From Bolinopsis microptera (Eukaryota; Ctenophora; Tentaculata; Lobata; Bolinopsidae): a stretch of 64,000 nt of DNA. Shown here in pieces: positions 11,601 to 60,989 of the stretch. How positions within the stretch are numbered: position 1 is the stretch's first letter; the number at the start of each line of letters is the position of its first letter. The stretch spans positions 2,513,730 to 2,577,729 of the forward strand of contig NC_087079.1 in assembly GCF_026151205.1 (NCBI RefSeq), in the 5' to 3' direction. The notes below the pieces were generated by a model. That model had not been told where the DNA came from. It made no database searches and saw nothing but the letters and a program-made list of their open reading frames with translations. The translations under genes and the position numbers were made by a program.

Positions 11601-14600
11601 CAGAGATTATAGATATGGGTCAAATTTAGATTTCCTGAAAGTTTCGTCAAATTTAATTAATTGCAGTGGGTGTGGCACGCCAATCCCTCTTTTTCGCTAT
11701 TGTCACCATAAAGTGATTTAACGCTTTCAGCTAGGAACTTCAAAGTTTCTAGACATATTTGGTTTTATAATTGAAGTGCGTTCCCAAAATTTCAAGTTGG
11801 TTGTTCACAATTTAACCGATTTATGACCCTTTTAAGATATTGCAGATACGTGATCTCGGCATTTAATCTCTGAAATTTCTGTGCAATTTTGACAAGAATT
11901 ACGTGAGTTATTAAAGGGTTGCATGTGGGCAGTTACTTCTGTGCCACCCTGTATATAGCATCTGATTTCTGAAAACCAATTGCTGTTGGAGTAAAAATCA
12001 GCTATGACAATTTCAATATCCTGGCGACTCTTGATAATCTGAATTTTAACCTCGGGTTGTTAAAATAAAATGATACTTTTACCTTAAGACGTCGTGTGAT
12101 CGCGAGTTCTAGCACTCTTCTGGCTGGATAACGTACCCAAACGTTTAATACTTTTATAAACGATGCTCCTATTAGACTGTAGTTCTCGTGTCTTATAACT
12201 TCATAGGTTGTCGGCAAAATGTTGCTGATATAATTACAATAAAACTATCAAAACGCGTAATTGTCGTAATGCTAACGTTTTACTGATATTAGAACGACTC
12301 TTGTCGGCAAATTGTTCTTGCCTTTCTTTTGTCCATCAAATCATCAGTTCACTGCACCTGGTTATCAGTTCACTGCACCTGGTTATCAGTTCACTGCACC
12401 TGGTTATCAGTTCACTGCACCTGGTTATCAGTTCACTGCACCTGGTTATCAGTTCACTGCACCTGGTTATCAGTTCACTGCACCTGGTCATCAGTTCACT
12501 GCACATGGCTATCAGTTCACTGCACCTGGTTATCAGTTCACTGCACCTGGTTATCAGTTCACTGCACCTGGTTATCAGTTCACTGCACCTGGTCATCAGT
12601 TCACTGCACCTGGTTATCAGTTCACTGCACCTGGTTGTCAGTTCACTGCACCTGGTTATCAGTTCACTGCACCTGGTTATCAGTTCACTGCACCTGGTTA
12701 TCAGTTCACTGCACCTGGTTATCAGTTCACTGCACCTGGTCATCAGTTCACTGCACCTGGTTATCAGTTCACTACACCTGGTTATCAGTTCACTGCACCT
12801 GGTTATCAGTTCACTGCACCTGGTTATCAGTTCACTGCACCTGGTTATCAGTTCACTGCACCTGGTCATCAGTTCACTGCACCTGGTTATCAGTTCACTG
12901 CACCTGGTTATCAGTTCACTGCACCTGGTTATCAGTTCACTGCACCTGGTCATCAGTTCACTGCACCTGGTTATCAGTTCACTGCACCTGGTCATCAGTT
13001 CACTGCACCTGGTTATCAGTTCACTGCACCTGGTTACCCAAACTCCGGACTATACAAGACTTCATCGTATCTCTCTAGTCTACCTATATTATTTATAATG
13101 AAAAATGTAGGTATTACGTTCAATTATTGATGGTGCACTGCTCAACTGTCTACGTTTGTCACGTGAGCTAAATTAAGAAAAAACTTCTTTTCCTAAATTT
13201 GAGTTCCAAAACACCTACATGAATTTAAGGAGTTTCCTAACCGGCAAATAAACGTTGCAGTGGACATGCTCCTTATTTCATATGATCTATCTGTAACGAA
13301 TTGGGGGGGGGGGGGGGGGGAATTGGTTATTTCTACCAATATTGAGGCCAGTTTTTAAGATGACGAGTTATAAGCATGGCTGTTATAATATTGGATAATT
13401 ACAGGAACTCACAAAATCCGTTTTTGGATTTAAAAAATTCCAATATGTGGTTAGCCAGTTATTGAGCAAGATTTCAACCTTTTAGCATTAAACTCCAGGC
13501 ACTTTGGACTTCCAGTCAAATTTTAGGCATCGTTTGCAACCAATGTGAGGTGGAGAATACTAAAACACGTCACGTGGGTTACTATGGTCACGTGGGTTAC
13601 CATGGTCACGTGGGTTGTCTCGACACCGCTATAAACTCCTATTTCAAATTTGAATTTATATTTGTCTAGCCACACTTTCAAAATCGAAATAGACAAAGGG
13701 ATTCATTGTTTTCCCAATGAATTATAATATAATATACGCTAAAGGATGCCTTAAATTTCGAACCTTGGAACAAACTCATTAATACGTGGCTTAAGGATCA
13801 ACAGAACAGAACAATAAAAAGCTTTCAGAGTCAACATGGAACTCCTATACAATGGTCCATATTCCAGACGAAATCTATACACCTGGTAGTAAACCAGAGT
13901 CCAGAGAGCTCTCTAATGGCCCTCTAGGTCACTAAACCTGACCAATTATCTTGCAGCTCACTACTGTTTTCAGTCCATTGTAAAAAAATTGAATCTTGAC
14001 AAACAAAACTGAACTAAAACAATCCAATATTTATATAGAGCTATAGAGCATTCATTCATGATTTTAATGATCGCTTATTTTTCAACTCACGTCGAATGGG
14101 AGATCCATTTGCAGGAGTTTAGTTAGAGATTTTACTGTTTTCCTTCTATCGATACCACCTGCTACCTGCATAAGTTCCACAAACTCCTCGTAAGTACCTC
14201 CTCGACTCATGTGGTCCAACTGTGACACGTGTTAATAAAATGGGGCACGTGTTAATTAAATGGGGCACGTGTTATTTTAACGATAGCACTTGTTAGTTCA
14301 AATAGCGGACGTCATGATAATAATGAGATCAGTGCACTGGCAAACGCACCAGGGGAATTTAACACATCCCAGCCAATGTTAGTAAATATCTCTGGCGAGC
14401 CTCAACTATGTGTGTTTCCCCCTACTATCGTTGGATGCATTTCCAAGAATTAAAAACGACTAATATAACGCACATCAGAGAACCATTTTTGATTAAAAAT
14501 AATATTATGCTTGCAAAGTACTGACAGTACGCTAAGTAAAGTTAAGCTAAGCAATCAATATAATATCATCGCACCTGGTCGATGATAAATATCTTGAGTT

Positions 14601-33697: not shown

Positions 33698-35052
33698 TCA
33701 AAATATCACAGCAGTCTCCTCACTTTCCACACCATCACCCCCAGGACCCCAGGGTCTAAGAGGTTTGGTATACTCGGAGGCCCAGTCCCTATCAAACACT
33801 CCAGCCACAGTCCCACACACACCACACCCTCCCCCGTTCTCCATGATCATACTAATCCCCCAGTACTGGTGAAGTAGTCTCCAGACCAGTTACTTGTAGA
33901 CACGTACGTGTTCTTATCTGTAACAACGAATTTAGCATGGTTGACTCGCGCGTACTGCAGACGTTCTTGTGCGGGTGTGTAGGCTGGTATGATGAACAGT
34001 TTGACTTTACTGACGACTTTATGGTCTCTTCCGCTGCCATCAAGAGCTGCAAGGCTGGAGAGATAGTGGTATTCATCAGATCGGGACAGGTTGTGCGGCA
34101 TCAGACCTACCAGGAGCCTAAGTTCAACTCCACGGTTAAAAACAGCTCTGCGCAGCGCATCGTCTATAACTGGCCAGTATTTGTTAGGATTAGTGTAGAT
34201 AATGGCGGGAAAGTAGTCCATTACTTCAATGTGGATGAACTTCTCAGCTGAGTCCAACACATGTATCAGACCATCAATTCCAACAGTTCGGCTTTTTGTA
34301 CAAAACTGTGGTGGGCTTGAAACTAAAAAGGCTGTCATCACAGTGTTTGATTGCATAGTTTTAAACCTCATGGGATTGTTGCTGTTGTATAAAGTATCCA
34401 ACGATGCAGGGAATTTATCAGGAACTGGGTTGGTTGTAAGATACCAGTAAATTTCAAACATCTTTTGAAGATCCTGAGCGATAACTCGACAGTTTATACC
34501 CAGGATTCCCAACTCTTTGACCTGCCGAAGGGATTGCCAGTCCATGTTTGCAGACCCAAGATAGAAGCTTGTCTGATCAGCAACCCACAACTTAGTATGG
34601 ATTATCCCACCCCCTATCAGTTTCTCAAAGTCGAGATACCTCACTTCTGCTGCTCCAGCATCCGCTAAATCCTTGGTATCAGGATCAGGAAACTCCTTAT
34701 CAGGAACATTGTGCACAATCCTCAATCCACCTCCGGCTTCTTTTAATCTCAACCCAGTTCTCCGTAAACCACTCCAAATATCCCTCCCATCTTCATCAGA
34801 TCCATCCTCGGCAGGTGGGCTGGGTCTCAGATCAAAGTAATACTCAGCGATATCAAGATTAAGTTGGGCTGCATCGAGTAGCTGAGTAAGAGCCATAGTG
34901 GTGGGCTCATTTCTTGGAAGGGAGGAGTTGGCGAAGGTGAGACCGTCAGGAATTGTTTCCACAATCCTTAGTTCTTCACAAGAAGTAGGGTCAAGTGACA
35001 GGGTATACGAGGAGAGGGAGAGCAGGAGCAGGGTCAGCAGAATTTGCTGCAT
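33698..35052 (-). CDS. PLD3/PLD4-like phospholipase D family protein, frame broken near 3' end
   Basis: Single-exon gene. In animals PLD3/PLD4 are endolysosomal exonucleases of the phospholipase D superfamily. N-terminal hydrophobic segment (residues 3-19) acts as signal or anchor. First HKD site: H152, K154, D159 followed by GSANMDWQSL. Second: H372, K374, D379 followed by TSNWSG. The open frame from ATG 35052 runs to a TGA at 33847 (401 residues). The expected C-terminus, with GVFDRDWASEY like the family FLRDWDSPY, continues in another frame from about 33856 to a TGA at 33698. The shift maps to a run of five G (minus strand) at 33857-33861. A one-base loss there explains it, either as a real mutation or as a homopolymer sequence error. 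Confidence 0.9.
33857..33861 (-). other. one-base frame break in PLD3/4-like gene
   Basis: Upstream of this G run the frame reads SGDYFTSTGG. Downstream, a different frame reads SMIMENGGG and then the conserved RDW motif. One extra G would join them without other change. Confidence 0.8.
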
Positions 35053-42477: not shown

Positions 42478-44642
42478 AAATAATAATAATAATTTAAACT
42501 TATAGATTATAGTGGCACAACAACTTAAAATGCACAGGTGTGCCACGAAAACAAGTCAGGATACAAGAAAACCTGAAAAGCAATCCACATTTAGGTTCCA
42601 AACCATAGAAAATTGTAAAGACTTGATACACTAAATTACAAGGTTAAGGGTATGCACTTAACAGTAGAAACGTTGAAAAAGTAGTAAATTAATTAATATC
42701 AAAAGCACGTTTAAAAAGAAACGTTTTCAGATACACTTTAAAAGATTCCAGTGACATGCAATTCTTAATTTCAAGAGGCAGCTCATTCCATAATTTAGGG
42801 CCAACCTTCTGAAACGATCTTTCTCCATACTGTGAATATACTCTTGGTTCAGTCAAATAGATAAGATGATTATAATTGGCATATTTAAACATATCACTTA
42901 AATAATCTGGTCCCATACCATTAAGACATTTATAGACAAGAAGCAATAACTTATATTGAATTCTGTAACTAATAGGCAGCCAATGAAGGTCTTTCAGAGT
43001 GTCTCCTAGATGATCATATTTATATAGTCCTACTATAGCTTTAGCAGCTGCATTCTGAACGAGTTGGAGTTGGTGGATGAGGTTGTCACTAATTCCATAA
43101 TAAAGAGCATTGCAGTAGTCCAATTTGCAGACAATGATGCTGTTAATTATAAGCTTGAGCTGAGCTTTACTAAAGAGATATTTTCTCCTTATTACATTCC
43201 TAAGGAGTCTGAAACAATGCTTTTTGAGGGACATGATTTGAGGCTCAAAAGTAAGATGATGGTCAATTTGAACACCAAGGTTCTTTGTTGTGCTGACAAA
43301 TCTGATACAGGTATCATTTGATAGCTTAACTCCCCCTATACTGACCTGGTTTAGAACTTGAGGTGAGGCGATGATAAGTATTTGTGTTTTTCCAGGATTA
43401 AGTTGAAGGCAATATTCAACCATCCAGCGCTGTATGGTCCTAGCGCAATTCACAATTTGGATGCCCAGAACATTTACCTGATCACAAGGTTTGAAAGTTT
43501 TATATACCTGGTGGTCATCTGCATATCCTTGCACATTGAATCCAGATTTCTCGATGGTCCTATACAGAGATCTGATGTATATGTTGAATAGCACCGGTCC
43601 TAACACAGAACCTTGAGGTACACCAAATTCTAGAATGATCGTATCACTAGTAGAAGAGCCTATTCTGGTTCTTTGAGTGCGGCCTACCAGGAAACTCTTG
43701 AACCATTTAAGAGCAGTACCTCCGATATGGATCTCTTCAGAAAGAATTTTGAGTAATTTTCTGTGTTCCACTGTGTCAAAGGCTGCAGATAAATCGAGCA
43801 TCATGAGAACAGTGGAGGATTTGCTATCACATGCCAGCAGTAGGTCATTTGTTACTTTTAACAAGATGGTCTCAGTAGAATGGAACTTCTTATAGGCAGA
43901 TTGCTGTGGCACATTGAGATCATTTTTAGCCAGATGTTCATTTAACCTTTTCAGCACAACTCTCTCGATGAGTTTACCCAGAAAAGAGAGGTTAGATATA
44001 GGTCGATAGCTCTTGAAGTCATTTGGATCAAGTTTGTGGTCCTTGATGGTAGGAATAATGTCAGCAGTCTTCAAACCGTCGAATGTGCCCTTAGCTAGAG
44101 ACTGGTTCACCAGTTTGCACAAGACAGGAATGAAACTTGTGATATTGTCTTTGAGGACAGTTGTTGGAAGAAAATCAGATGGTGCACACTTGATTCCACT
44201 TTCTTTGATTATTTCAGACAGCTCATCCTCTGTGCATGGTTCAAATTCATATAACCGACCTTCACAGTTGGAATTGTTCTGTTGATTCATAATGTGTTTA
44301 TCAACATCAAAATCTTCTATGCTGGGGAAATCTTTCCTAATGTTCTTGATCTTTTCATTGAAATAGTGATTAAAATCACTGCAAAGTTTTGAAACATCTT
44401 CTGATTCTGGGAGAGGAGTATTCTGATGTCTGTCAAGCTCACGATTGACAATGCTATATATAGCTTTAACATCATGTTGATTTTTGTCAAGTAAACCTTT
44501 ATAATACTGTTGTTTTTTAAGATTAGCCATGTTTGTTGTTTCATCTCGGATCTCTTCAAAGAGTATCCTGTTCTCCTCACTTTTATGCTTAGTTCTCTCG
44601 GCTTTCCTTCTAAGTTTCCTTTGATCTTTGTTATTAAGTACC
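42478..44642 (-). mobile_element. 5'-truncated CR1/L2-like LINE with intact reverse transcriptase frame
   Basis: The frame from ATG 44530 to 42689 (613 residues, open further upstream to about 44640) holds a reverse transcriptase: KSYRPISNLSFLGKLIER, LDLSAAFDTVEH, FGVPQGSVLGP and GYADDHQ, then a C-terminal domain ending in FLFKRAFDIN. The endonuclease domain is missing, so it is 5'-truncated. The 3' end shows an (ATT)n tail near 42480-42495. It inserted into the left interior of the palindromic element. Confidence 0.88.
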
Positions 44643-44800
44643 TATCAAAAATAAATCTTATATCAATGTAATATATTAAAAATCATAATCCTAAGTCTAA
44701 TAATAAATCTGTTAAAAACACTTTCTCACTACACTGCGCTCACACACGTTAGTAAGACAAAGGAAAATGCACACCCAGCTAATTTTAAATTTCAAGATAA

Positions 44801-45474
44801 TCATTTTGGATGTGTGGACCCTAGGGTAGACTTAATGTCAAAATTTAGATTAGAGCATTCAAAATCTTTGTTTGTCCAATCAAGATCAGCATGGTTATGC
44901 TGGTTGACGAGCAGTGATTGCTTCATCCTAGACTTCAGGCAGGACACACTTAGACAGTAGTCACGTATACCAAGCTTAGGCACAATTACGTTCCAAATAC
45001 GAGTCGTTCTGCTATTGAAGTTGTCAGGGGGGTCTGCTTGGCTTAGTATAAGGGTGGGTTTCCTACTTGAGCAGGTGAAATTTTCATGGAGGGAAATCGG
45101 AGCACGGAATTTCATGATTTTATAGAGCTCAAGGAAACAATGGTAAGTGTACAGGTTTTGGACGGCAAGTATTCCGTGTTCCTTGAACAAAGGTTTCGTG
45201 TGCTCTTTCAAGAAAAATTTTTTGTTCAGATTTTGGTTGCCAAACGGTCGAGCACCAGCACAGGTCTTAAATTTATCTAGGTATGCCTCCCTGTCGCCAA
45301 ACAGTACCCTGAGACAATATTTTTGTGCTTTGAATACAGAACTTATACGAGTTTTGGCTGCCCCACCCCAAACCGTGATACAATAGGAGAGGTGTGATTC
45401 AAATAGAGTGTAATACAACTGGCGGTGTAAGAAATCTGGGAGGGAGCAGCGTAGGCGGCAGAGAGTTGAACAAC
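44801..45474 (-). pseudogene. C-terminal fragment of another LINE ORF2
   Basis: An open frame of about 225 residues with LHRQLYYTLFESHLSYC and TVWGG, then KAQKYCLRVLFGDREAY, is typical of the region after the reverse transcriptase of CR1/jockey-like LINEs. There is no catalytic core, so it is a dead 5'-truncated copy. Its upstream edge abuts the surviving centre of the palindromic element at 45475. The frame differs in sequence from the neighbour at 42478-44642, so it is a separate family. Confidence 0.8.
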
Positions 45475-45660
45475 AAGCAGGAAGGATCATCTGTGATAGT
45501 CCTTATCAGTTAAAATATAGAGAGAATGGAATGTGCGATGGATTCACAACATAACATAACATTATAAATAATGCCTCTCTGGGCATCTCAAAAAGAAATT
45601 CATAGAAAATGAACACTTTACGTTTGAAACCATATAATTACAAACTTTTAAAAAATTTAA

Positions 45661-48242
45661 CTAAATACCTTTGATATTAACCTTCTTCCTCTTTGCTACC
45701 AATGGATTATCTTTTATATAACTTACATAACTATTCCTATTAGACACAGACACATCTATCCTATCAAAGATGTCATATGAAAGTTCCCAGTGATGACCAA
45801 GCTTATTAGCTCGATATCCATGAAGCCGAAAGGCATCTAATCCCCTCTTGAAACCAGTAACTGACTCACTAGCTTTCACAAGTGGTGGTAGACTGTTCCA
45901 GTAGCGCAAGACCCTTTGGGCAAAGAAATCAGTCTCATTTGTGGTGAATCTATGAGTCTTTGATCTAGCAGCAACGGTCCTACCAGAACGACCAAATAAA
46001 TCGGAACCATAACCCACAAAGCCTTCCTGGATCTTGAACATCTCAATGAGATCTCCACGAACCCTGCGTTCAAGCAGGGTTGTGAGGTTCAGCTTATCCA
46101 GTCTCTCTCTGTACGTCATGAGTCCCAATCCATCAATCATACGGGTGAACGATCTTTGAACACCTTCCAATTCAAGAATCAGTGACCAGTTTCCATGCCT
46201 AGCCATTGGAGCCCATGCCTGTGAACAATACTCTATATGAGGCTTTACTAAAGACTTATACAAGCCCAGCATAACGCTTTTCTCCCTCGATATAATATTT
46301 CTTGTAAGCCAGGCAATGGTACTATTAGCTTTAGCAATGCACTTTCTCACATGACCCTCAAAGTTGAAGCTGGTGTTAAAGACAACTCCAAGGTCCTTCT
46401 CGCTTTCAACACATCTCAAAGGCACACCACCAAACAAGTACTGATTCTTAGGATTACAAGAACCAATTTGCATGACCATACACTTATCTACATTAAAATT
46501 TAAACACCAACGAGACTCCCAAAGTTCTAGCAACTTCAAATCAGCTGTTAGATTAATAAAAGGATTAACAATCATTTTAACATCATCAGCAAAAAGTTTG
46601 ATGATAGCTTTGATTCCTTCTGGAAGATCATTTACAAATAAAAGAAAGAGCAATGGTCCCAAAACACTGCCTTGGGGCACTCCTGAAAGTATATACTTAA
46701 TCTCAGAAAATTCATCTCCTACTTTAACTTTCATAGACCTCCCTATACTAAAAAGTTTTCTAAAATACCAATTATCTCCTCAGGAACACCAACATTTCTT
46801 AATTTAACTAATAAACGGTGGTGTGGTACGCTATCAAAGGCCTTAGAGAAATCAAAGTATAATATATCAGCACAGCCACCTTCAGCCAGCAAGTCATTGA
46901 CAGCGTCAATAGACTCCAGTAGGTTAGATAAGCATGACCGACCCTTCATGAAGCCGTGCTGCGTGCTACTAAGCACCTGTTCAACACCGTCGAGAATATA
47001 CTCCCTAAGAAGCTTCTCATAGGCTTTGCATAGTATACAAGTCAGTGACACAGGCCTGTAATTATTAGGACTATGTACTGACCCCTTTTTGTGCAAGGCC
47101 ACAACAGTGGCAGTTTTCCATACCTCAGGAATATACTGCTCAGAAGCACAGGCACTAAACAGCAACACAACCGCATCCACAAAGGAACTGTTCTCACTTA
47201 AATACCTCAGGAGTCTAGGATGAACACCATCAGGACCCATAGCTTTACTAATATCTAGTGATCCCAAAATCTTGGCAACACTTTCAGGGTGCACCATAAA
47301 TTTACTCCAGAAGTAATCATTATTACATTCTGTATAACAATTTTGAGGCAGAGGGCCAAAAGGTTCAGGTTTAAAAACTGACTGGAAAAAATCAGCTAAC
47401 ACTTCTGCCGTTTCAGAAGGAGACTTGGTCTCAGAACCATCATCTGTTTTAAGTCTTTCTACAGATTTTCTTAAAACACTTTTAGATTTAAGGTAATTAA
47501 AAAGAGGTTTACAATTTAACTTAAACAATTTAGTCACGTTATTCTCATATTTGATCTTTGCCTTAATCTCAGCGTTCTGGTACATCCGCTGCTCGTACTC
47601 GGCTGCGTTAAACATCACCATCGTAGGATCCTCGTCAAAATCCTTCCATGCCCGGTCCTTGCACTTTCTTTTCCTAACCAGACTAGAGCAATCCCAGGGT
47701 AACCTCTGTAAGATCTCCCCACCTTTAGTTGTTTTAAGGTGGGTGGTTGGAACACGATCTGAAATGACACTAAGTTTTTGGTGTAATTCTTCCCACATCT
47801 CTTCGACCTGAAGATCTTCTCTAGAGTACCCCCAGCTGATGTCTGATGACTGTGTGTTAACAAAGTCCTGATCCACCTTATACCAGCTTTTCTTCTTAGA
47901 TGTAAGGAACTCGACATTGTTTTTGACTTTCAGCTCGACCAGTAGTGATACATGATCGCTTTTACCCAGAGGAGCAAGGATATCAACATTATTTACAAAA
48001 CAATCATTATTGCAGAAGACCTGATCAAGCAAGGAGCATTGAGTTGTATCACCAACCTTCCTGACACGTGTCGAAGACCCAGTGACATACCACTTCAAAC
48101 CTTTCCTGGTAAAGACATTCAAGAATTCTGATTCCATCAGCAACCTTCTGTCACATGAGTTTGGTGGGCGCTCGACTAAACTTTTGTCCCAGTTAACATG
48201 AGGTAGGTTCACATCGCCAACTATCACCAACTCTTCATCCGC
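45661..48242 (-). pseudogene. LINE ORF2, reverse transcriptase part, one frameshift
   Basis: Second part of an ORF2 whose endonuclease start lies at 49557-49933. The frame 48230-46743 has GDVNLPHVNWD, SLLDQVFCN, KSDHVSLLVEL, then NYRPVSLTCILCKAYEKL and YFDFSKAFDSVPHHRL. The frame 46734-45661 continues with SGVPQGSVLGPLL and FADD in place of YADD, and a CR1-type C-terminus (RRVRGDLIEMFKI, then RVLRYWNSLPPLV). The two frames are separated by a one-base shift in a T run near 46747. The 3' end has ATGTT repeats near 45550-45565. Confidence 0.88.
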
Positions 48243-48249
48243 ATTAACT

Positions 48250-49028
48250 GTTAGAATCTTAATTCTATTTGTAGCTTGTTTTTGTACTTACATATTACTA
48301 ACCCTGTATCTCACTTTAGCAAAGGTTTAGTTCCAGTGATTGTATATACAGTGTTGGGGTAAAGGGACTCCAGAAGGCAGACAAGGCTCGACTCCAGACT
48401 CTAGTTGAAGTAACAGAAGAGAGAGGAGTGTCCAGTGTTTAGTTGACTCCAGACTCTAGCGTAGCAGAAGGGAGAGGAGTGACGTTGTCGACTCCAGACT
48501 CTAGCGTAGCAGAAGGGAGAGGAGTGACGTTGTTTTAGTGATCCCACAGATTCCAGTCGACAGATACTATCTGTGTTCTGTGACGTGGAAAGAGTGGTAA
48601 GTAGTTTATAGTTATAGTTTAGTAGTTTAGTCTAGGAGATCCCGCTTCCTCTTTCACTTTCATTTATAGTTTCACGTGGATTACCTTTCACTTTACTCAC
48701 GGTCGTTTTCCCCCAGGGTTTTTTGTTTTATAGTTATCAGTTCCAGTTTTACTTGAAGTCCTCATCATTCAGAAGTCCCTCATATAGTAAGAAGAACATC
48801 ATCATCAGGAGTAGTAGTTTTAATTTAATAGTAGTTTAATCTAATAGTAAAAAAGACATTGTTTAGTTTAGTATTGAAATGTGTTTTAACTATTAGTCAG
48901 AGCAGAGTAGTGTGAGTTACTGAGTCACACCATATCAATCATTCACTATTTAAGAGAGTACATTGTAGAGTAACAAGGTTACTTTTGACACAAGATTTGT
49001 ATAACCTCTTTATTCATCTAATTTGTAT

Positions 49029-49082
<54 letters not shown>

Positions 49083-49549
49083 CTGGGGGAAAACGACCGT
49101 GAGTAAAGTGAAAGGTAATCCACGTGAAACTATAAATGAAAGTGAAAGAGGAAGCGGGATCTCCTAGACTAAACTACTAAACTATAACTATAAACTACTT
49201 ACCACTCTTTCCACGTCACAGAACACAGATAGTATCTGTCGACTGGAATCTGTGGGATCACTAAAACAACGTCACTCCTCTCCCTTCTGCTACGCTAGAG
49301 TCTGGAGTCGACAACGTCACTCCTCTCCCTTCTGCTACGCTAGAGTCTGGAGTCAACTAAACACTGGACACTCCTCTCTCTTCTGTTACTTCAACTAGAG
49401 TCTGGAGTCGAGCCTTGTCTGCCTTCTGGAGTCCCTTTACCCCAACACTGTATATACAATCACTGGAACTAAACCTTTGCTAAAGTGAGATACAGGGTTA
49501 GTAATATGTAAGTACAAAAACAAGCTACAAATAGAATTAAGATTCTAAC
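48250..49549. mobile_element. 1.3-kb foldback element with 476-bp arms
   Basis: The left arm (48250 to about 48725) and right arm (about 49074-49549) are reverse complements over almost their whole length. The spacer is about 350 bp and ends in about 48 A residues. Flanking 7-bp duplication ATTAACT at 48243-48249 and 49550-49556. Removing the element plus one duplication rejoins the interrupted LINE endonuclease frame (LERLPVNADEELVIVGD). Inside each arm a GACTCCAGACTCTAGCGTAG unit is repeated. Confidence 0.92.
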
Positions 49550-49556
49550 ATTAACT

Positions 49557-49933
49557 GGTAAACGTTCAAGAGCACCTAACAGGCCAGCATTGTCCTTCAT
49601 ATCAACAAGTGAAGTAGACCGATACAGACAAACAACATTGAACCTAACAGAGTCGATTACAATATTTACCGCAAGTGATTCAAGACCAGTAAACCAATCC
49701 AATCGTTCTACCCTCAGTGCTTTGTGGACAAAGATAGCAGATCCCCCAAAACGTGTATCATTAGGTCTGTCTGCACGAAAGAGGTTGAAATTAGGAATAG
49801 ACACTTCAGCGTCAACAATATCTGAATTTAGCCAGGACTCTGTCACACAAATGATCTGAACGTCGTGAGTCTCTGACAAAACCATGAGTTCCGTCATCTT
49901 ATTGTACAGGGAATTAGCATTAGTGTACAGCAT
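49557..49933 (-). pseudogene. LINE ORF2, endonuclease start, split by foldback element
   Basis: The frame from ATG 49933 reads MLYTNANSLYNKMTELM, then CVTESWLNSDI and LFRADRPNDTRFGGSAIFV, the N-terminal part of an AP-like endonuclease. It is cut at LPVN by the insertion and continues at 48242 with ADEELVIVGDVN. Confidence 0.88.
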
Positions 49934-49965
49934 CCTGATACCCTGTGATTCCTTTACGCAACTCG

Positions 49966-50991
49966 CTACTCGTTTTTTGACTTCACAGCATTCTGGACAA
50001 CATCTTCTTTATTATCCGCATGCTCTACATTTGTTACAGAAGCCACATCAGTTGGCAGTTCCTCTTTGGGTGGTTTGTCAGCAGTTACTTTCGTCCTCTT
50101 ATCAGTTTCCAGTTTAGCATTGCGTGTGTTCCACCGGATATCTCGATCCGCCTTGATCAAGTCAGGATTTATCCATACATCATCACTTTTCTTTTTTCCA
50201 TGATAAGCAAACCCGCGTCCATGGTTGTGTGTGTAAGTAGCTAACTCTTCACTCTTTAGCTTCGCAATGACCATTCTTCCCCTGTACTTTGTACGGTTGA
50301 CGTTGCCAAATACACCTATTCTCTTTGCTGATACAATGTCACTCTGGTTAAGATCTGTTGCATGTCGACAGATGATAGCCTTTAGTTGTTCCTGACTCTC
50401 ATTTTCCTTATCTTCATCAGGTAAGTTTGACAGAACAATGTTATTCTCCCGCTTTTTCCTTTCCTGCATGTTAGCATCAATCTGTTGTGAGATGGTGGTT
50501 ATTGCAGGGCCTGCTGCGTGCTGACACACTTCAGCTATCAATTTCTTCTGCTGCCCACTGGCTATCTCAGCCCAACTCTTGTGTATCTTCTTATTGGCTT
50601 CTGAAACAACATCATTTACAAGAACCTTCTGGATAGATTGTTCCACACTGGCGCTGACAGCAGTCTGTATAACACTTGTCAGTTCTTTAGCAACGTCATC
50701 AGTAAGTTTTTCAAATTTGAGTTTCTCAGGCAAAACGAAACAAAAGTGGCAGTTCCACACTGTCAGCTTCTTGACATCTGTAACGGTTAGACCAGCCAAA
50801 CCGGCACAACTACTATGCCACCAATTCTCACATGTTGAACAACCTAGCCAAACAATCTTCTTTCTCGCAAGTGGTTCATCATACTTCTGACAATAGAAGC
50901 ATATCTCCTTTCTCTCGTTAGTTTCTGTACTGGCTGGGTCACTATCGATGTGACCCGTTTGCCCGCCATTGTTAGCCATCCCTGAACTCAA
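49966..50991 (-). CDS. LINE ORF1 with PHD-type zinc finger
   Basis: 341 residues. Residues 29-84 form a PHD-like Cys4-His-Cys3 finger (CFYC, CSTCENWWHSSC, CHFC). A helical stretch (92-190) and a block with RKKRENNIVLSNLPDE then SAKRIGV follow, typical of ORF1 proteins of CR1-like LINEs. Ends 33 bp before the endonuclease start on the same strand. PHD fingers in CR1-like ORF1s are known. The frame is intact although its ORF2 is dead. Confidence 0.85.
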   Translation of the reverse strand: MSSGMANNGGQTGHIDSDPASTETNERKEICFYCQKYDEPLARKKIVWLGCSTCENWWHSSCAGLAGLTVTDVKKLTVWNCHFCFVLPEKLKFEKLTDDVAKELTSVIQTAVSASVEQSIQKVLVNDVVSEANKKIHKSWAEIASGQQKKLIAEVCQHAAGPAITTISQQIDANMQERKKRENNIVLSNLPDEDKENESQEQLKAIICRHATDLNQSDIVSAKRIGVFGNVNRTKYRGRMVIAKLKSEELATYTHNHGRGFAYHGKKKSDDVWINPDLIKADRDIRWNTRNAKLETDKRTKVTADKPPKEELPTDVASVTNVEHADNKEDVVQNAVKSKNE

Positions 50992-52006: not shown

Positions 52007-52206
52007 GGAGAGTGCGCAGGATTTTTTTCCCTACTCTTGCCGAAGGCAAAAAGATCGTAGGGAATAAGTAATCGGGTTTAGATATATGAGGTGGCCCGAT
52101 GGACCTGCAATGACGACAAAAGTCTGCTCCTTCGCAATATAGACCACTCCCCTATAATTAAGTGTGTAGGAAGCGTCTGTTATGCTGCGCGCGACGCTAG
52201 CCATTT

Positions 52207-52815
52207 TTTTTTAATTTGAAAATTCAATTAATTATTATATATACAAATCAAGCGTTACATTTCAGCCATGCAAAATTACAATGACATATTTTAATATTCT
52301 AATTGTAAAATGGTGCTGCAATATAGGTTGCTTAATGTTTGGCCGGATGACAACTAACTAAAAGAAAAAATAAACTTGATTACATAATAATTAATTCGGC
52401 TGAACCAACATATAACAAAAGCCACATTAAAGTTGGGGCCGTCTACCAAATTTGAATGACATACAATAACAAGAAATCAAACATATCATAAATAATTATA
52501 TATGGATTTTGTTCATTACAATTCCGTCACAACTGATAAAAGAAAAAAGAAGGACAAGCGGACAGGAATTTGGACGGACAGAATTGTAACCAACAAAAAC
52601 ACATTTCTGAGACTAGTCTGGCCAGACTGTATCGGCAGCCCAAAGGTACTTGATCAGATTGGCCTTAAAAGTAGAAATCCGGTCTGACTGCCGGATACAT
52701 ACTGGTAGACTATTCCATTTCAGCATAATTATATGAAAGAAGCTATTTCGGAAGGCATCCGAACAGGGCACAGTGGTATTCATGTAAGTTAAAGTATCCG
52801 ACATATTTGCTTCGA
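52207..52815 (-). mobile_element. 5'-truncated copy of the AlkB-ORF1 LINE family (copy 3)
   Basis: Matches about 59525-60131 of the intact LINE in reverse complement, ending in a poly-A tail (poly-T at 52206-52214). The frame 52613-52858 carries NTTVPCSDAFRNSF and YLWAADTVWPD. Truncation point is within about 25 bp of that in copy 2. Confidence 0.9.
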
Positions 52816-53835: not shown

Positions 53836-54498
53836 TGCAACCATGTACTGATTTAATTTGATTTGATTGATGATATTTATTGCGTGTAAAATTGAAGGAT
53901 CTATAAACAACCGATTTTGCTTTGAGTTATCGCTTGTTTTTATTTTGAATTGTACTTTTTTAATATTTGATATTTGAATTTGGATCAATTTGAATCAAAA
54001 GTCATGTTTTAATACTTTCAACACTACTATATAACAAATAATTTGAGTATGATGAGGGATGGCTACCGATGAGTAATCCGTTGGAGTAAAGTCTGCCGGT
54101 GTCCTGGGTGTGATGGATCTGAGTTAGATGGCATGTTGTGGAGGTGGTAATCGTTTCTTCCTATTGCCCTGGTAGTCTTGTACTTCCAGGGCTCCTGCGG
54201 TCTGGTACGAGGTTAGTTTAATTGTTAGAGATCTAGTGATGTTTGAAATTTGTTAACTCCTTTTAGCTACTTCTCCCTTAGATAAGTATTGCATTCTTTT
54301 TTCTGCTATACAGTTCTTTACCACAACTCTGTTCATTATAATTCAATTTTTTTCACTCTGAACTATAAATCTCTGGCCTATTGACTGTTTCAGATCCAGA
54401 TTGCTAGGGTTTATAACGGTGCCACTGAAACATCCTGCTGTTGATCTCTTATCCGGATCACCCAGTCTCCTCCCGATCCTCCCACACTTCACAACAAG

Positions 54499-56016
54499 AT
54501 GCCAACACTGCCCGCCAACTTCCCCGCCTTACTGCAAAACTTATCTCTTGAAGTAAAGCAACACATGCATACCCTCCTCACTGAGAGTATCCTGGACAGT
54601 CTGAAAGAGGAAAAGCTTGCTTCAAAGATAGAACGGTTAGATGAAAAGAAGAAGGAAAAGAAAACGAAGAAGGAAACTACTGTTCAAAATGTCTCGTATA
54701 GCCCACATGCGCTCGTAGAGCACGTCCCAGTCCTCCCTGGAATGAACGAAAACCTATTCAAGAAAATCACAGAAGAATTGGATTCAATGAATCTTGAAGG
54801 CAAATCTAAAAAAGTCCACACCCTATGGCTAAGCCCTTCATCAGAAGACTACTGCTTTGGTAACATAGTTAACAAGCCACATCCCATCAACAACTTCCCT
54901 AGCATCTTTAAGTTGATGGGACTTATTAATGACCTCCCCTCCACCACCAACAACATGGATGCTTGCCTTGTTACTAGGTACAACACTCAGCAAGCTAAGT
55001 TAAGCCTCCATAAAGACGATGAAGACCTAATAATATCACAGTCCAGCTCCATTTGCACTTACTCAATAGGAGCTCCACGGTCACTTGAGTTTGTACTGGA
55101 TACAACCCAAGTAGAACAACGCACAACTAGGGCCTCTAGGTCAAGGCCAGCCCAAGAGTTGATTAACGCAGACTTCACCCTCCCTGCCACCAATGGCACA
55201 CTGAACATCATGAAGCCTGGTGCACAGCAAGTCATGAGGCACAGGATTGCCCCAGGAGTTGCACCTTCTGACAATGAAACTTGTTGGAGGTATAGTCTCT
55301 CCTTCAGAAAGTTAGCCACACCTTCCTCTTCCTCTTCCCCTTCATCTCCTATTCTTCCCTCTCCTACATCCGACAGTCCTAATAAAGTATCCCCAAAAGC
55401 CCCCATCACAGACTCTCAAAAACACCAGAAGTCTATCATTCTCATTGCTGGTGACTCCTTTGCTGCTCGATTGGACGCTGATCGCCTCAGTAGAGGTAAA
55501 GAAACTGTCACCAACATAGCTAAGGGTGGGCTTAAGATCTCAGCTATACAGAAATCTATTGAGGCCTTTTATACAAAGAACCCTCTTGTGCAGGTAAAGA
55601 AACTGTTCTTAAGCTTCGGTGCCAACGACATCCGGTACTGTACCCAGGGGGTCAATCATCTCAAGACCCCTGTGAGTGACCTTATGAAGACAGCAAAAAA
55701 ACTTTATCCAAATGCACGTGTTTTTGTACAAGCTATTCCACCAGTCCACCCCAACGGACAAGAGAAAATCCCTGGTAATGTTTGTGCTATGAATAATTTG
55801 ATCTTTGATCGCTGCTCTAGGCATAAACTGTTTTACCTTGATGTTTTTTGGGCATTCTTAGACCGCTATGGAAACAGAAACGAGAGATTATTTCCTAAGT
55901 GTGACAATAGGGGCTTTTATGATATTCATCCCAGCCCCAAGGCTGGGATGCCAGTGTTGGCAAAGTTCTATCTCAGAATCATACACTCAAAGTGGTTTAA
56001 TCCAATGGGATACTGA
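54499..56016 (+). CDS. LINE ORF1: AlkB-like dioxygenase domain fused to SGNH hydrolase domain
   Basis: 505 residues. Residues 1-60 are helical and end in a Lys-rich stretch. Residues about 105-272 look like an AlkB-family 2-oxoglutarate/Fe(II) dioxygenase: ACLVTRYNTQQAKLSLHKDD supplies H171-x-D173, then SICTYSIGAPRSLEF, NIMKPGAQQVMRHRI with H248, and WRYSLSFR with R264 and R270. That is the AlkB order RYxxGAxLSxHxDxxE, SLG, HxI, RYxLTFR. A Ser/Pro linker (275-300) follows. Residues about 312-495 form an SGNH/GDSL hydrolase: GDS with S320, GAND with N376, and D475-x-H477-P. SGNH domains are known in CR1 ORF1 proteins; the AlkB part is not usual. Predicted roles are RNA or DNA demethylation by the first domain and esterase activity by the second, both inferred. 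Confidence 0.9.
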   Translation: MPTLPANFPALLQNLSLEVKQHMHTLLTESILDSLKEEKLASKIERLDEKKKEKKTKKETTVQNVSYSPHALVEHVPVLPGMNENLFKKITEELDSMNLEGKSKKVHTLWLSPSSEDYCFGNIVNKPHPINNFPSIFKLMGLINDLPSTTNNMDACLVTRYNTQQAKLSLHKDDEDLIISQSSSICTYSIGAPRSLEFVLDTTQVEQRTTRASRSRPAQELINADFTLPATNGTLNIMKPGAQQVMRHRIAPGVAPSDNETCWRYSLSFRKLATPSSSSSPSSPILPSPTSDSPNKVSPKAPITDSQKHQKSIILIAGDSFAARLDADRLSRGKETVTNIAKGGLKISAIQKSIEAFYTKNPLVQVKKLFLSFGANDIRYCTQGVNHLKTPVSDLMKTAKKLYPNARVFVQAIPPVHPNGQEKIPGNVCAMNNLIFDRCSRHKLFYLDVFWAFLDRYGNRNERLFPKCDNRGFYDIHPSPKAGMPVLAKFYLRIIHSKWFNPMGY

Positions 56017-56210
56017 TGTGGTAATCCAACTCAATATTTCAATTTTTCATTGTCTGCATCAGTATCCTATTGGATCTGATCATTTGGATGTTATTTATAT
56101 GTATTCAAACGAAGTGATAGCATAATGTATGTTACTTCATATTATAGCACAATACCTGACAAAACACAACGGCGAGACACAATTCTGTTAATAATATACT
56201 TTAAAGTTCT

Positions 56211-59200
56211 ATGGGAATATCGGCTCAACAACACCGTGTTGCAACTGGTATGTTTTCTAGGTATGTTATCATCAGTAAAAGTAATAGAGGTAACGGGGAA
56301 AATTTGTTGTCCTGTCTTCTGTCTCGTCATATGTTATGTGCTCTATTGGGTATATTTTATTTTTATGTTATTTTGTATATATTTTCTTTGACTATCGATG
56401 CTAAAATACTCCCTGGTGCTCCCCTACAACCTAAAATACACTCTGTACCATGTTTGAGGTCATCCATAAATCTTTACTTTATGGTAATATTTTGTACCAT
56501 TTTTCTCAGACACTTTAAACTTGTGTATAGGGGGGAGGGGGGCATTGGGACAGCCTTAGCTGCAATTTCTGTAAAATTGCTATCTACCACAAAAACCAAA
56601 CTGTCACCTACCATGTCACCGAAACAGACTGTTAAGTTACTTTTCAGTATAACCAGCAGCTGGCTTGGGGTCATGTCTAGGTGTGGTCTGGTTTTTCTAT
56701 CTCTCCTTAATATTTCCCTGATAGTAATTTGTAATTGTTCCTTACTGAACCCTGGACCAAATTTATCCGTTGTTTACAATAATGTCCATGGTTTCCTAAA
56801 TACACGCGATTTAGCATCAGGAACACCACCACTAAATATGACCAAGATACATGAATTCCATGGTTATATCTACAAACATAAGCCTCACATCATTATTCTA
56901 AACGAGACATGGCTGAAAAATTCCATTCTCAGTAATGAGGTGCTCCCTGACAAATACAAAGTATTTAGGCTTGACCGATCCTTAAGATCGCATCCAGTGG
57001 ATGCAACCCAGCCCAAGAAATTCAGAAAAAACGGTGGTGGTGTTCTGATTGCCCATAGAACAGACATTGATATCTCGAGTCTAAAGTTCTCTAAAGTTAG
57101 TGTTCAAGCTGAATTATTATCCATCATAATTAAGACTCAGTGTGGAAGAAACTTTTGTATATCAACATTTTATAGAGTAGGAACGCTTGGCTTAGATAAT
57201 TTTGAATCTTTCAAGAAACATTTTGTTACTTTAGCATCTGCCAGAAAACTGCAAAGGCACATTCTGGTAGGTGACTTTAATTTGGCTTCGATTTCCTGGC
57301 CAGATGGTCAGTCATCTTGCCAGTTACATTCTAGCTTTGTAAATTTTCTCACTGATGACCTCGGACATACACAACTTATTAGCTCCCCTACTCACAAGTC
57401 AGGCAACACCTTAGATCTTGTGTTCACTAACATTCAAAACCTTATTAAGAATGTTAAAGTTTTAGATCAAAACGAAATGTGTATGTCTGACCACTTTTGT
57501 ATCACATTTGACATTGATATTAAGACCAAGTATATTAAGCAGCCTAAAAGAAAGATCTTTAATTATAGTAAAGGTAATTTTAGGGGCCTGAATTCTGAGT
57601 TATTTAGCATCGATTGGGATAGTATATTTGAGTGTAATGATCCTTATCTTGCCTGGAGTCGATTCAGAGGAGTTCTCGGTGCAGCCTGTGACCGATGGAT
57701 CCCTAAAAAGACCATTAAGTCTCAGTTCCAGCCCCCATGGTATGACTCCGAATGTGATCGTCTCCTACGAAATAAGGAGAAATGGAGAATAAGGCATAAG
57801 GGGAGCAACTCTGAGTCTCATAAACAAAAGTTTCGTGCATTTCGCACAAAATTTAAAAATTTGATGGACGAAAGAATGAGACTCAGTGTTGAGGATGACT
57901 CCGATGATGCTCTTATCTCCAAGAAGTTCTGGACCTACGTTAAATCTAAATCAAAGTCAACCAGGATCCCTGAAACTGTCAAATATCATAATCGCTTTCG
58001 AAACAATCCATCTGATCAAGCTGCCCTTTTTAACGAATATTTTTATGAGCAGTTTTCTCAAGAGAGCGATTATGGCATTGACATAGATTTTCGTGATGAT
58101 TGTTTTTCAAGTCTTGTGTTTAGTAGAGAAGATGTTCTGTTGATTCTTAAAAAGTTAAATCCTAACAAGGCCCCTGGCCCTGATGGGATTCATGGGAGAG
58201 TCCTCAAAAACTGTGCCCAAAGCCTTGCATACCCACTTAGTGTTTTATTTAACCTGTCTTTCTCGAGCGGATGCATACCCCCTGATTGGAAGCTGGCACT
58301 TGTAGTACCAGTGCACAAAAAGGGCGATAAGTCTTCGGTTGAGAACTACAGGCCTATCTCGTTAACATCTCTTGTAATGAAAGTCTTTGAAAGGTGCATA
58401 AAGACTGCATTATACGCTGCGTGTTCTGATCTGTTGGATGACCGACAACACGGTTTTGTTAATGAACGTTCATGCACAACCCAAATGATACCTTTCACGG
58501 ACAATCTTGCACTTGCATTGAATAACAGGTCCAGGACTGATATAATATATTTTGATTTTGCGAAAGCCTTTGATAGCGTTTCGCATGACCTCATTTTAAG
58601 TAAATTAAAGAATATTTTTAATGTCGATGGACTAATGCTTAAATTTATTAAGTCCTATCTTGAGGGGCGACAACAACAAGTAGTGATAGGAGGCCAAACG
58701 TCTTCTTCTCTACCAGTTCGGTCTGGTGTCCCTCAAGGTTCTATACTTGGCCCTTTATTGTTTGTAATATTTATAAATGACATGTTCTCCTGTGTCTCTG
58801 AAGGCACCAATATCGCCCTTTATGCAGATGACACTAAAATTTGGAGGGAGATTCTTGGTTACCCTGACCATCACATAATCCAAAATGACATCAATAGATT
58901 ATATGATTGGTCAGTGAGAAATCGAATGAAGTTCCACCCACAAAAGTGCAAAGCCCTCTCTGTGTCCCTGCAAAGAAACGTGCTGGATAACTTGCCATTC
59001 AATACCTTCTTTTATAAACTTTCTGGAAGTGATATTGACTTTGTGCCCTCTCAGTCAGATTTAGGAGTCGCAATAAACTCCAGGTTTAATTGGGGTGCAC
59101 AATGTAAAGCGCTTGTTTCCAAAGCTACATCTAGACTTGGACTACTTAAGAGAACATGTCATTTCACTACTGATAAAAGGCAGAAAAGATCGTTCTATTT

Positions 59201-59717
59201 AGCGTTAATTAGGTCTATATTTGAACATTGTTCTGTCATATGGTCCCCTCAATCTGCAACTCATCTTCAACAGTTTGTTGCTATCCAAAAGAGGGCTATT
59301 AAATGGATCAATGGTGAACCTTACTCCAGTTATAATGACGATAAACTTGCTACAGAGCAAAAGAAACTAAATATTCTCCCTGTTAAACAGAAGTTTATTT
59401 ATAACGATCTTATGACCTTCTATAAAATAGTGAAAAGCATAATTCCAGTTTCGCTCCCTACATATATAGTCCTATGCCGTCCAGAGGGCACCCGATACAC
59501 TAGGCACAATGCTCAAATAATTGATATGTCGGATACTTCAACTTACATGAGTACCACTGTGCCCTGCTCGGATGCCTTCCGAAATAGCTTTTTTCATAGA
59601 TCTATGATGAAATGGAATAGTCTACCAGTATGTATCCGGCAGTCAGAGCGTATTTCTACTTTTAAGGCCAAACTGATCAAGTACCTCTGGGCTGCCGATA
59701 CAGTCTGGCCAGATTAG
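56211..59717 (+). CDS. LINE ORF2: endonuclease and reverse transcriptase, intact
   Basis: 1168 residues from this ATG. Residues 1-185 are unusually hydrophobic, with three possible membrane segments (IFYFYVILYIFSLTI, LYFMVIFCTIFL, LVFLSLLNISLIVI). A later Met may be the true start. Endonuclease about 188-440: VVYNNVHG, LNETW (E232), GDFN (D355, N357), LDLVFTN, SDH (427-428). Reverse transcriptase about 660-930: NPNKAPGPDGIHGRVL, ENYRPISLTSLVMKVFE, YFDFAKAFDSVSHD, SGVPQGSILGPLLF (839 on) and YADD (871-874). C-terminal domain to 1168 ends AADTVWPD. All catalytic motifs are present. It starts 195 bp after ORF1. Confidence 0.92.
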   Translation: MGISAQQHRVATGMFSRYVIISKSNRGNGENLLSCLLSRHMLCALLGIFYFYVILYIFSLTIDAKILPGAPLQPKIHSVPCLRSSINLYFMVIFCTIFLRHFKLVYRGEGGIGTALAAISVKLLSTTKTKLSPTMSPKQTVKLLFSITSSWLGVMSRCGLVFLSLLNISLIVICNCSLLNPGPNLSVVYNNVHGFLNTRDLASGTPPLNMTKIHEFHGYIYKHKPHIIILNETWLKNSILSNEVLPDKYKVFRLDRSLRSHPVDATQPKKFRKNGGGVLIAHRTDIDISSLKFSKVSVQAELLSIIIKTQCGRNFCISTFYRVGTLGLDNFESFKKHFVTLASARKLQRHILVGDFNLASISWPDGQSSCQLHSSFVNFLTDDLGHTQLISSPTHKSGNTLDLVFTNIQNLIKNVKVLDQNEMCMSDHFCITFDIDIKTKYIKQPKRKIFNYSKGNFRGLNSELFSIDWDSIFECNDPYLAWSRFRGVLGAACDRWIPKKTIKSQFQPPWYDSECDRLLRNKEKWRIRHKGSNSESHKQKFRAFRTKFKNLMDERMRLSVEDDSDDALISKKFWTYVKSKSKSTRIPETVKYHNRFRNNPSDQAALFNEYFYEQFSQESDYGIDIDFRDDCFSSLVFSREDVLLILKKLNPNKAPGPDGIHGRVLKNCAQSLAYPLSVLFNLSFSSGCIPPDWKLALVVPVHKKGDKSSVENYRPISLTSLVMKVFERCIKTALYAACSDLLDDRQHGFVNERSCTTQMIPFTDNLALALNNRSRTDIIYFDFAKAFDSVSHDLILSKLKNIFNVDGLMLKFIKSYLEGRQQQVVIGGQTSSSLPVRSGVPQGSILGPLLFVIFINDMFSCVSEGTNIALYADDTKIWREILGYPDHHIIQNDINRLYDWSVRNRMKFHPQKCKALSVSLQRNVLDNLPFNTFFYKLSGSDIDFVPSQSDLGVAINSRFNWGAQCKALVSKATSRLGLLKRTCHFTTDKRQKRSFYLALIRSIFEHCSVIWSPQSATHLQQFVAIQKRAIKWINGEPYSSYNDDKLATEQKKLNILPVKQKFIYNDLMTFYKIVKSIIPVSLPTYIVLCRPEGTRYTRHNAQIIDMSDTSTYMSTTVPCSDAFRNSFFHRSMMKWNSLPVCIRQSERISTFKAKLIKYLWAADTVWPD

Positions 59718-60330
59718 CTCATCAGTCTCAGAAATTTGTTTTTGTTGGTTACAATTCTGTCCGTCCAATTTCCTATCTGCTTGTCCTTTTCTTTTTCTTT
59801 TTTTTTATCAGTTGTGACGGAATTGTAATGAACAAAATCCTTATAATTATTCATGATATGTTTGATTTCTTGTTAATGTTTGTCATTCAAATTTGGTAGA
59901 CGGCCCCAACGTTAATGTGGCTCTTGCTATGTGTTGGTTCAGCCGAATTAATTATTATATAATCAAGTTTATTTTTCTCGTTAGTTGTCATCCGGCCAAA
60001 CATTAAGCAACTTATATTGCAGTACCATTTATCATTTAGTAACCAAAATATGTCATTGTAATTTTGCATGGCTGAAATGTAACGCTTGATTTATATATAT
60101 AATGATTAATTGAATTTTCAAATAAAAAAAAATGTAACATTTTTGGGCGAGCGAATCAGTTTGAGCCATACTAAATGAATGATTAAATTTGCAGTTGTTC
60201 TTTTCGATCGCTGCCTGACCCATCATATGTTTTAATTTTATGGAATGCATGTACAATGTAAAGCTGCACAAAGTTGTACAAGTTCTTGAAAACATTCGTT
60301 ATGGAACTAAGTATACATTACATAAATGTA

Positions 60331-60351: not shown

Positions 60352-60989
60352 GGGTATACGTTGGCCTTAATAACTCAGTCACTGAGTGCCCAATTGAAAT
60401 ATTTCTTTCTGGTATGACTTACTACCACCACTGGTTCGAGGAATTTGTCTAATCGAAAAATATTCGAGTTCATTTTTTTCAAATGAAGGTTAATTTTTGC
60501 ATTTATTTGATAGTTTGGATAGTCAAATCGAGCTAAATTTTATTGAATAGTGTTTGGCCATTCGAATTACGTTTGTCCTGAACAAATTAGAACTGTAGCT
60601 TCTCAGATGACAGAGATATGAAGCATAACGATTTTATTCATTACGTGTGATCAGGTGATTGGTTTACCTAATCACGTGATTAGGTGACCCCGTTAACCAC
60701 CCCGTTGAACATTATGGGAATTGTTAAGGGTGCCCAATTAAGGTGTCGTGTCAAGGTGTCACATAGTCATCCAGTCAATTTTGTTAACGAGATATAGAAA
60801 ATGCTTGATAACTTCTTCATTTCTAATCCGTTTTGCCTCATTTTTTCAGATCATATGCAAAATTTAATAATCTACCGTTTCTGAAAAAAATTAGGTGTCA
60901 GCATGTTCAGAGAAAACAATATATGTGTTCTAATATTGAATGGGCGTGGTATAAAATATTCGAATTTTCAAATTTTGACGACGGAATCC

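Follow-up and report, generated by a model that had tools for sequence, protein, structure and literature searches.

The 64,000-nt window analysed here (Bolinopsis microptera, contig NC_087079.1, positions 2,513,730–2,577,729, forward strand) carries a long interspersed nuclear element (LINE) whose first open reading frame (ORF1) joins a long N-terminal helix to two predicted enzyme domains, an AlkB-type 2-oxoglutarate (2OG)- and Fe(II)-dependent dioxygenase and an SGNH hydrolase, and is followed after 194 bases by an ORF2 with endonuclease and reverse transcriptase (EN-RT) domains (Table 1). The element was assigned to the LINEs on the basis of this downstream EN-RT frame, its many copies and its A-rich 3′ end. 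Searching the same genome (264.65 Mb, 232 contigs) with the ORF1 DNA returned at least 42 matches, many of them 97–100% identical; among 20 of these places taken with their flanks, a sample in which long matches were preferred and which is thus biased to intact copies, 16 have an unbroken full-length ORF1 and 8 an unbroken full-length ORF2. The family is young and probably still active. The same genome contains 17 Wnt matches at about five places, which identifies the host as an animal. At one copy (L019), the flanks correspond to a repeat present without the insertion near window positions 60716–60770, and comparison of this one copy indicates no target duplication or at most a few bases, which would fit the CR1/L2/Jockey superfamily without proving membership. 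An inverted 3′-end piece of the same family lies at 52204–52806 on the minus strand, ~1.2 kb upstream of the intact copy.

Table 1 Features of the window LINE, with the Helitron-type frame found elsewhere in the genome (UTR, untranslated region; window coordinates unless a locus is given)
Feature	Position	Strand	Evidence
Whole LINE copy, ~6.1 kb	54006..60132	+	limits common to long copies in same genome, ~96–99% identical
5′ UTR, starts GTTTTAATACTTTC	54006..54498	+	5′ start common to several long copies; others begin differently or further in
ORF1, 505 aa, helix + AlkB + SGNH (predicted)	54499..56016	+	open frame
Long N-terminal helix, residues 17–53, possible coiled coil for self-association	54547..54657	+	AlphaFold model m0f7440576420
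AlkB (2OG-Fe(II) dioxygenase) domain, predicted, residues 67–274	54697..55320	+	
H171-x-D173-D174-E175, putative iron ligands 1 and 2 and conserved acid at H+4	55009..55023	+	homologue alignment
H248, putative third iron ligand	55240..55242	+	ALKBH3 alignment, homologue conservation
R264-YSLSF-R270, aligned to ALKBH3 RVNLTFR	55288..55308	+	profile alignment, conservation
SGNH hydrolase domain, predicted, residues 310–499	55426..55995	+	
S320, SGNH nucleophile (GDS)	55456..55458	+	kept 119/119
N376 (GAND)	55624..55626	+	kept 117/117
H477 (DIHP)	55927..55929	+	kept 109/110
ORF2, 1168 aa, endonuclease + reverse transcriptase	56211..59717	+	open frame, Pfam
ORF2 endonuclease domain	56781..57503	+	PF03372/PF14529
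ORF2 reverse transcriptase domain	58314..58964	+	PF00078, E 5.5e-30
3′ UTR, short A run at end	59718..60132	+	shared limits of long copies
Helitron-type frame, SGNH + AlkB N-terminal, then Rep and PIF1	L033:383-10000		

The initial annotation had proposed an AlkB–SGNH fusion in an uninterrupted ORF1 upstream of an intact ORF2 from the residues H171, D173, H248, R264 and R270, followed by GDS, GAND and DxHP. Both frames and all of these residues are in place, and the residues are nearly invariant across the window protein and 120 homologues (gaps excluded): H171 is kept in 117/118 sequences, D173 in 117/117, E175 in 113/117 (D in three, Q in one), H248 in 120/121, R264 in 116/121 (C in three) and R270 in 121/121. 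The HxDxE...H...Rx5R signature is intact in all 13 transposon representatives, partly by choice because these were picked as open frames. We presume that the R264/R270 block serves 2OG and substrate binding, and take E175 to occupy the position of AlkB Asp135. The role of that aspartate is described in the available part of PMC10816986, which also gives His191, Asp193 and His257 as the iron ligands of ALKBH3.

Profile searches located this similarity at the level of the family: the AlkB family PF13532 is matched by 50 of the 56 members of ORF1 alignment A2, the window protein not being among the 50, and the A2 profile found AlkB among PDB chains (E 1.4e-17), with ALKBH3 and ALKBH2 best, the ALKBH3 blocks HSDDE, QHRV and RVNLTFR aligned with the ORF1 catalytic residues, and without any chain of ALKBH5 or FTO at E ≤ 1. 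The AlphaFold model contains the double-stranded beta-helix fold that the annotation had anticipated, and the best structure matches of the modelled AlkB part are again ALKBH3 and ALKBH2, with ALKBH5 and FTO lower in the lists. Taken together, profile, model and conservation make the predicted fusion of AlkB and SGNH in a LINE ORF1 well supported. The SGNH part matches 4c1b in the same PDB profile search, and its catalytic residues are present as in the esterase-type LINE ORF1s of the ZfL2-1 class; the OSK domain family (Oskar) is also matched by 13/56 A2 members (best E 1e-6). Relatives of the protein were found as the 120 protein homologues, mostly nameless entries of large collections for which a position upstream of EN-RT is assumed from the proteins alone, and one of which, labelled as a Gammaproteobacteria metagenome-assembled genome, is probably eukaryotic contamination; genome-contig searches (single sequence and alignment) and viral-contig searches confirmed none.

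The same enzyme pair recurs in other LINE types of this genome. A PF13532 search, in which 150 of 587 first-look candidates were scored, gave 151 matches; the best-scoring ones listed all lie above the cut-off and all but one are free of stops, and are thus biased to intact ones. Nine loci (L029–L037) were taken, mostly chosen by differing open-frame size; L034 and L036 are two copies of one type. In a Pfam scan of the proteins from all these loci except L031 and L036, PF13532 is above cut-off in 7/7, and PF13472 (SGNH) reaches E ≤ 0.1 in six of the seven and the Pfam cut-off in none, although the SGNH residues S, N and H can be made out in every one. Decay of these residues, suggested by a strict motif pattern, was rejected when a less strict pattern and visual inspection found all three. 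EN-RT frames lie downstream of the AlkB-containing ORF1 at L029, L031, L032, L034 and L036 (with Pfam support for L029 and L032). At L030 an RT frame follows ORF1 and no endonuclease match was found, whereas in the related L037 ORF1 is followed by an endonuclease frame, with no RT in the same direction; for these reasons L030/L037 represent a probable, not a certain, fourth LINE type. ORF2 identity among the window, L029/L034, L032 and L030 types is 24–33% in the best aligned part (L029 and L034 are 50% alike), and 33 homologues of the L029-type ORF1 all match PF13532. Within the window lineage, further sub-families stand at ~46–48% and 38–41% identity, and most of these include several open copies; another at 44–45% has six or seven stops in all three of its copies among the matches listed. 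At L035, the ORF1 (L035:4034-5998, minus strand) combines a weak PHD-like match with AlkB and SGNH in one frame, perhaps a three-module version, and is followed by a short endonuclease piece and then by a separate EN-RT frame of uncertain belonging.

Beyond LINEs, the pair occurs at L033 in a single frame exceeding 3,190 codons that matches SGNH (E 9.7e-5), AlkB (E 7.1e-21), DUF6570, Helitron_like_N and PIF1. Because Rep/Helitron_like_N and the PIF1 helicase reside in one protein, we classify this element as a Helitron. Its domain order, SGNH before AlkB, is the reverse of that in the LINEs. The SGNH part has its GDS in frame but ahead of the first ATG, and the AlkB part best matches ALKBH3 (E 2.7e-11). 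Among 7977 candidates scored, five homologues of the L033 region were found elsewhere, four of which have the Helitron, PIF1, AlkB and SGNH families listed for the same protein. The PF13532 search also returned open frames of more than 3,200 aa around AlkB at three further places in the genome.

Comparison of related families shows the AlkB part to be under purifying selection in two pairs: between L030 and L037, the ratio of nonsynonymous to synonymous substitution rates (dN/dS) is 0.05 for AlkB, 0.15 for SGNH, 0.20 for the N-terminal part and 0.23 for the middle, and between L041 and L040 it is 0.16 for AlkB and 0.11 for SGNH. Ratios of the window ORF1 against L038–L041 were not used since synonymous sites are saturated in most parts. 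L029 and L031 share 98.5% of ORF2 amino acids (dS 0.046) and only 59.5% of those of ORF1, where synonymous sites are saturated; their DNA identity rises from ~55–75% to 98% near L029 base 3037 (L031:2879), just before ORF2, and this sharp jump indicates that ORF1 and the 5′ side were swapped as a block between elements. The genome also contains one stretch resembling ALKBH2 (L042, E 1.7e-59 to the human protein) and one resembling ALKBH3 (L044, E 3.9e-40), presumably the host's own genes. In a 31-row tree, in which protein-search rows were treated as LINE on the basis of the proteins alone, the LINE and Helitron AlkBs fall on one side (support 88/82), adjoining the ALKBH3 group, and the Helitron AlkB sits among the LINE rows (branch support 96/92). 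This topology is compatible with, without proving, a single capture of an ALKBH3-like gene and later exchange between elements.

The explanation that we favour, and regard as on balance probable, is that the window ORF1 encodes a LINE particle protein with an ALKBH2/ALKBH3-type dioxygenase and an SGNH domain, the former stripping N1-methyladenine (m1A) and N3-methylcytosine (m3C) from the element's own single strands. It builds on the computed parts, namely both folds, the near-invariant catalytic residues, purifying selection on AlkB and the presence of the pair across several LINE types and a Helitron. In such a scheme, the ORF1 protein would coat the single-stranded nucleic acid of the element, the AlkB part would oxidatively remove m1A and m3C arising from chemical damage or host enzymes, and the LINE reverse transcriptase or the single-stranded DNA intermediate of the Helitron would then not be blocked by these marks; the SGNH part would probably serve membrane or particle assembly, as put forward for ZfL2-1. 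m1A and m3C are the likely targets because the domain groups with ALKBH2 and ALKBH3 and keeps the acid four residues past the first iron histidine. LINE RNA and Helitron DNA are each single stranded at a key step, and R2 is a non-LTR (long terminal repeat) element. According to the available parts of the sources, ALKBH3 acts on m1A, m3C and m1G (N1-methylguanine), mainly in single-stranded DNA or RNA (PMC10816986), and reverse transcriptases, including the R2 enzyme of the OTTR protocol in the case of m1A, are hindered by m1A, m3C and related bases, AlkB treatment raising the capture of most 3′ tRNA halves with modest change for intact tRNAs (PMC12140624). Assistance to reverse transcription of RNA as the sole explanation was dropped once L033 proved to be a Helitron: since Helitrons, which have no RNA template, share the cassette, such a reading is too narrow, and the presence of the pair there suggests a difficulty that single-stranded intermediates share. 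The annotation's suggestion that the element demethylates its own RNA or cDNA thus holds as a fair inference, narrowed here to m1A and m3C and widened beyond RNA, while its companion idea, removal of host-imposed methylation as an epitranscriptomic counter-defence, may hold, but the data reveal neither a host mark nor an m6A-type enzyme (m6A, N6-methyladenosine).

Several observations weigh against the predicted fusion. On its own, the window protein gave no PF13532 match in Pfam at E ≤ 10, and a phmmer search of PDB gave no AlkB chain at E ≤ 1 (top match ZfL2-1 ORF1p, E 0.17), so that the profile match foreseen in the annotation holds for the alignment and not for the single sequence. Likewise, motif residues are complete in the open-frame representatives, but five long homologues each carry at least one altered AlkB position: H171 is replaced by Y, R264 by C in three, and H248 by Y together with D at 175. 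We do not claim a single origin of the transposon AlkBs, given the 88/82 support and two long branches.

A wider hypothesis, which we advance only tentatively, is that SGNH–AlkB constitutes a mobile cassette traded among unrelated animal transposons, namely several LINE types and rolling-circle Helitrons, and kept against host marking or damage of their single strands at the Watson–Crick face (m1A/m3C), in an unrecognised methylation arms race; if true, these elements bring their own ALKBH3-like eraser. We regard as doubtful a counter-defence in which the AlkB part strips m6A from element RNA, or N6-methyladenine from element DNA, and so blunts host silencing. AlkB members do include m6A erasers, the ORF1 model also aligns with ALKBH5 and FTO, and the AlkB of orchid Gypsy elements has in vitro m6A demethylase activity (PMC9289625, available text); however, sequence affinity lies with ALKBH3/2, the profile search returned neither ALKBH5 nor FTO at its threshold, and mammals show the opposite sign, ALKBH5 suppressing and METTL3 favouring L1 (PMC7873242, in the part available). 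It is improbable that the domain mainly binds nucleic acid, in place of the RNA-recognition motif of other ORF1 proteins and with catalysis incidental: esterase-class ORF1 proteins are described as lacking known RNA-binding domains (PMC3905857, available text) and a catalytic position is changed in the five long homologues, yet binding alone would not require iron and 2OG residues that are near invariant overall and intact in the 13 representatives. Hydroxylation or demethylation of a protein, such as ORF2p or a host silencing protein, is similarly improbable given the affinity to the nucleic-acid enzymes ALKBH2/3, even though 2OG dioxygenases as a class include protein hydroxylases. That an ordinary LINE ORF1 without any AlkB should show the motif residues by chance, as the failed single-sequence matches might suggest, has a negligible probability, being already refuted by the profile, the model and conservation.

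Among known systems, the closest in layout are ZfL2-1 and the esterase-type ORF1s of CR1/L2/RTEX LINEs, which in the available text of PMC3905857 and PMC4120745 likewise precede an EN-RT ORF2 and carry an N-terminal helix and then SGNH; here, AlkB lies between helix and SGNH. The words AlkB, dioxygenase and 2OG do not occur in the available text of PMC4120745, a survey of 448 elements. Human ALKBH3 and ALKBH2 share the fold, the HxDxE...H...Rx5R residues and a GATR-like block, whereas here the domain is part of a predicted transposon particle protein, is ~20% identical to them, and exists beside the separate stretches L042 and L044. The Phalaenopsis Gypsy with an AlkB ORF2 is also a retrotransposon encoding an AlkB-type demethylase (predicted in our case), but is an orchid LTR element with a separate ORF that ends in AlkB and, in the available text, no mention of SGNH (PMC9289625), in contrast to many families of animal LINEs and a Helitron here. 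Plant Flexiviridae and other plant RNA viruses are genetic parasites that also hold AlkB within one protein but do not reverse transcribe (PMC544882, PMC9452765, as far as their available text goes). Bdelloid GDSL/SGNH ORFs similarly place an accessory enzyme across several retroelement types; AlkB is absent by word search of the available text of PMC5408684, which does not mention a DNA transposon. SGNH in LINE ORF1 and AlkB in an LTR element and plant viruses are thus already known. Among the open-access papers listed, judged mostly by title and opening of the abstract and exclusive of subscription papers, Repbase notes and preprints, we found no description of AlkB in LINE ORF1 or Helitrons; as far as this literature reaches, three things are new: AlkB as a standard LINE ORF1 domain, its combination with SGNH in different LINE types, and the occurrence of AlkB in Helitrons.

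With these findings, LINEs and Helitrons join the parasites in which AlkB is known. Of the two LINE proteins, that of ORF1 is understood less well, and removal of bases that block reverse transcription, our best guess, would give it a directly testable catalytic job. The families also offer a rich natural collection of small predicted dioxygenases for RNA sequencing based on reverse transcription, and where a genome of this kind seems to have an expanded AlkB family, the expansion should not be mistaken for host genes.

Elsewhere in the window, the minus strand at 42689–50991 holds the remains of one or more other LINEs: several EN and RT pieces, and a frame resembling ORF1 that has a weak PHD-like match. 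At 33847–35052, also on the minus strand, a 401-aa open frame with PLD-like matches is perhaps, as a guess, an intronless host gene. A tandem array at 12343–13036 comprises 33 copies of a 21-base unit with 97% matches and is open in all three plus-strand frames and one minus-strand frame.
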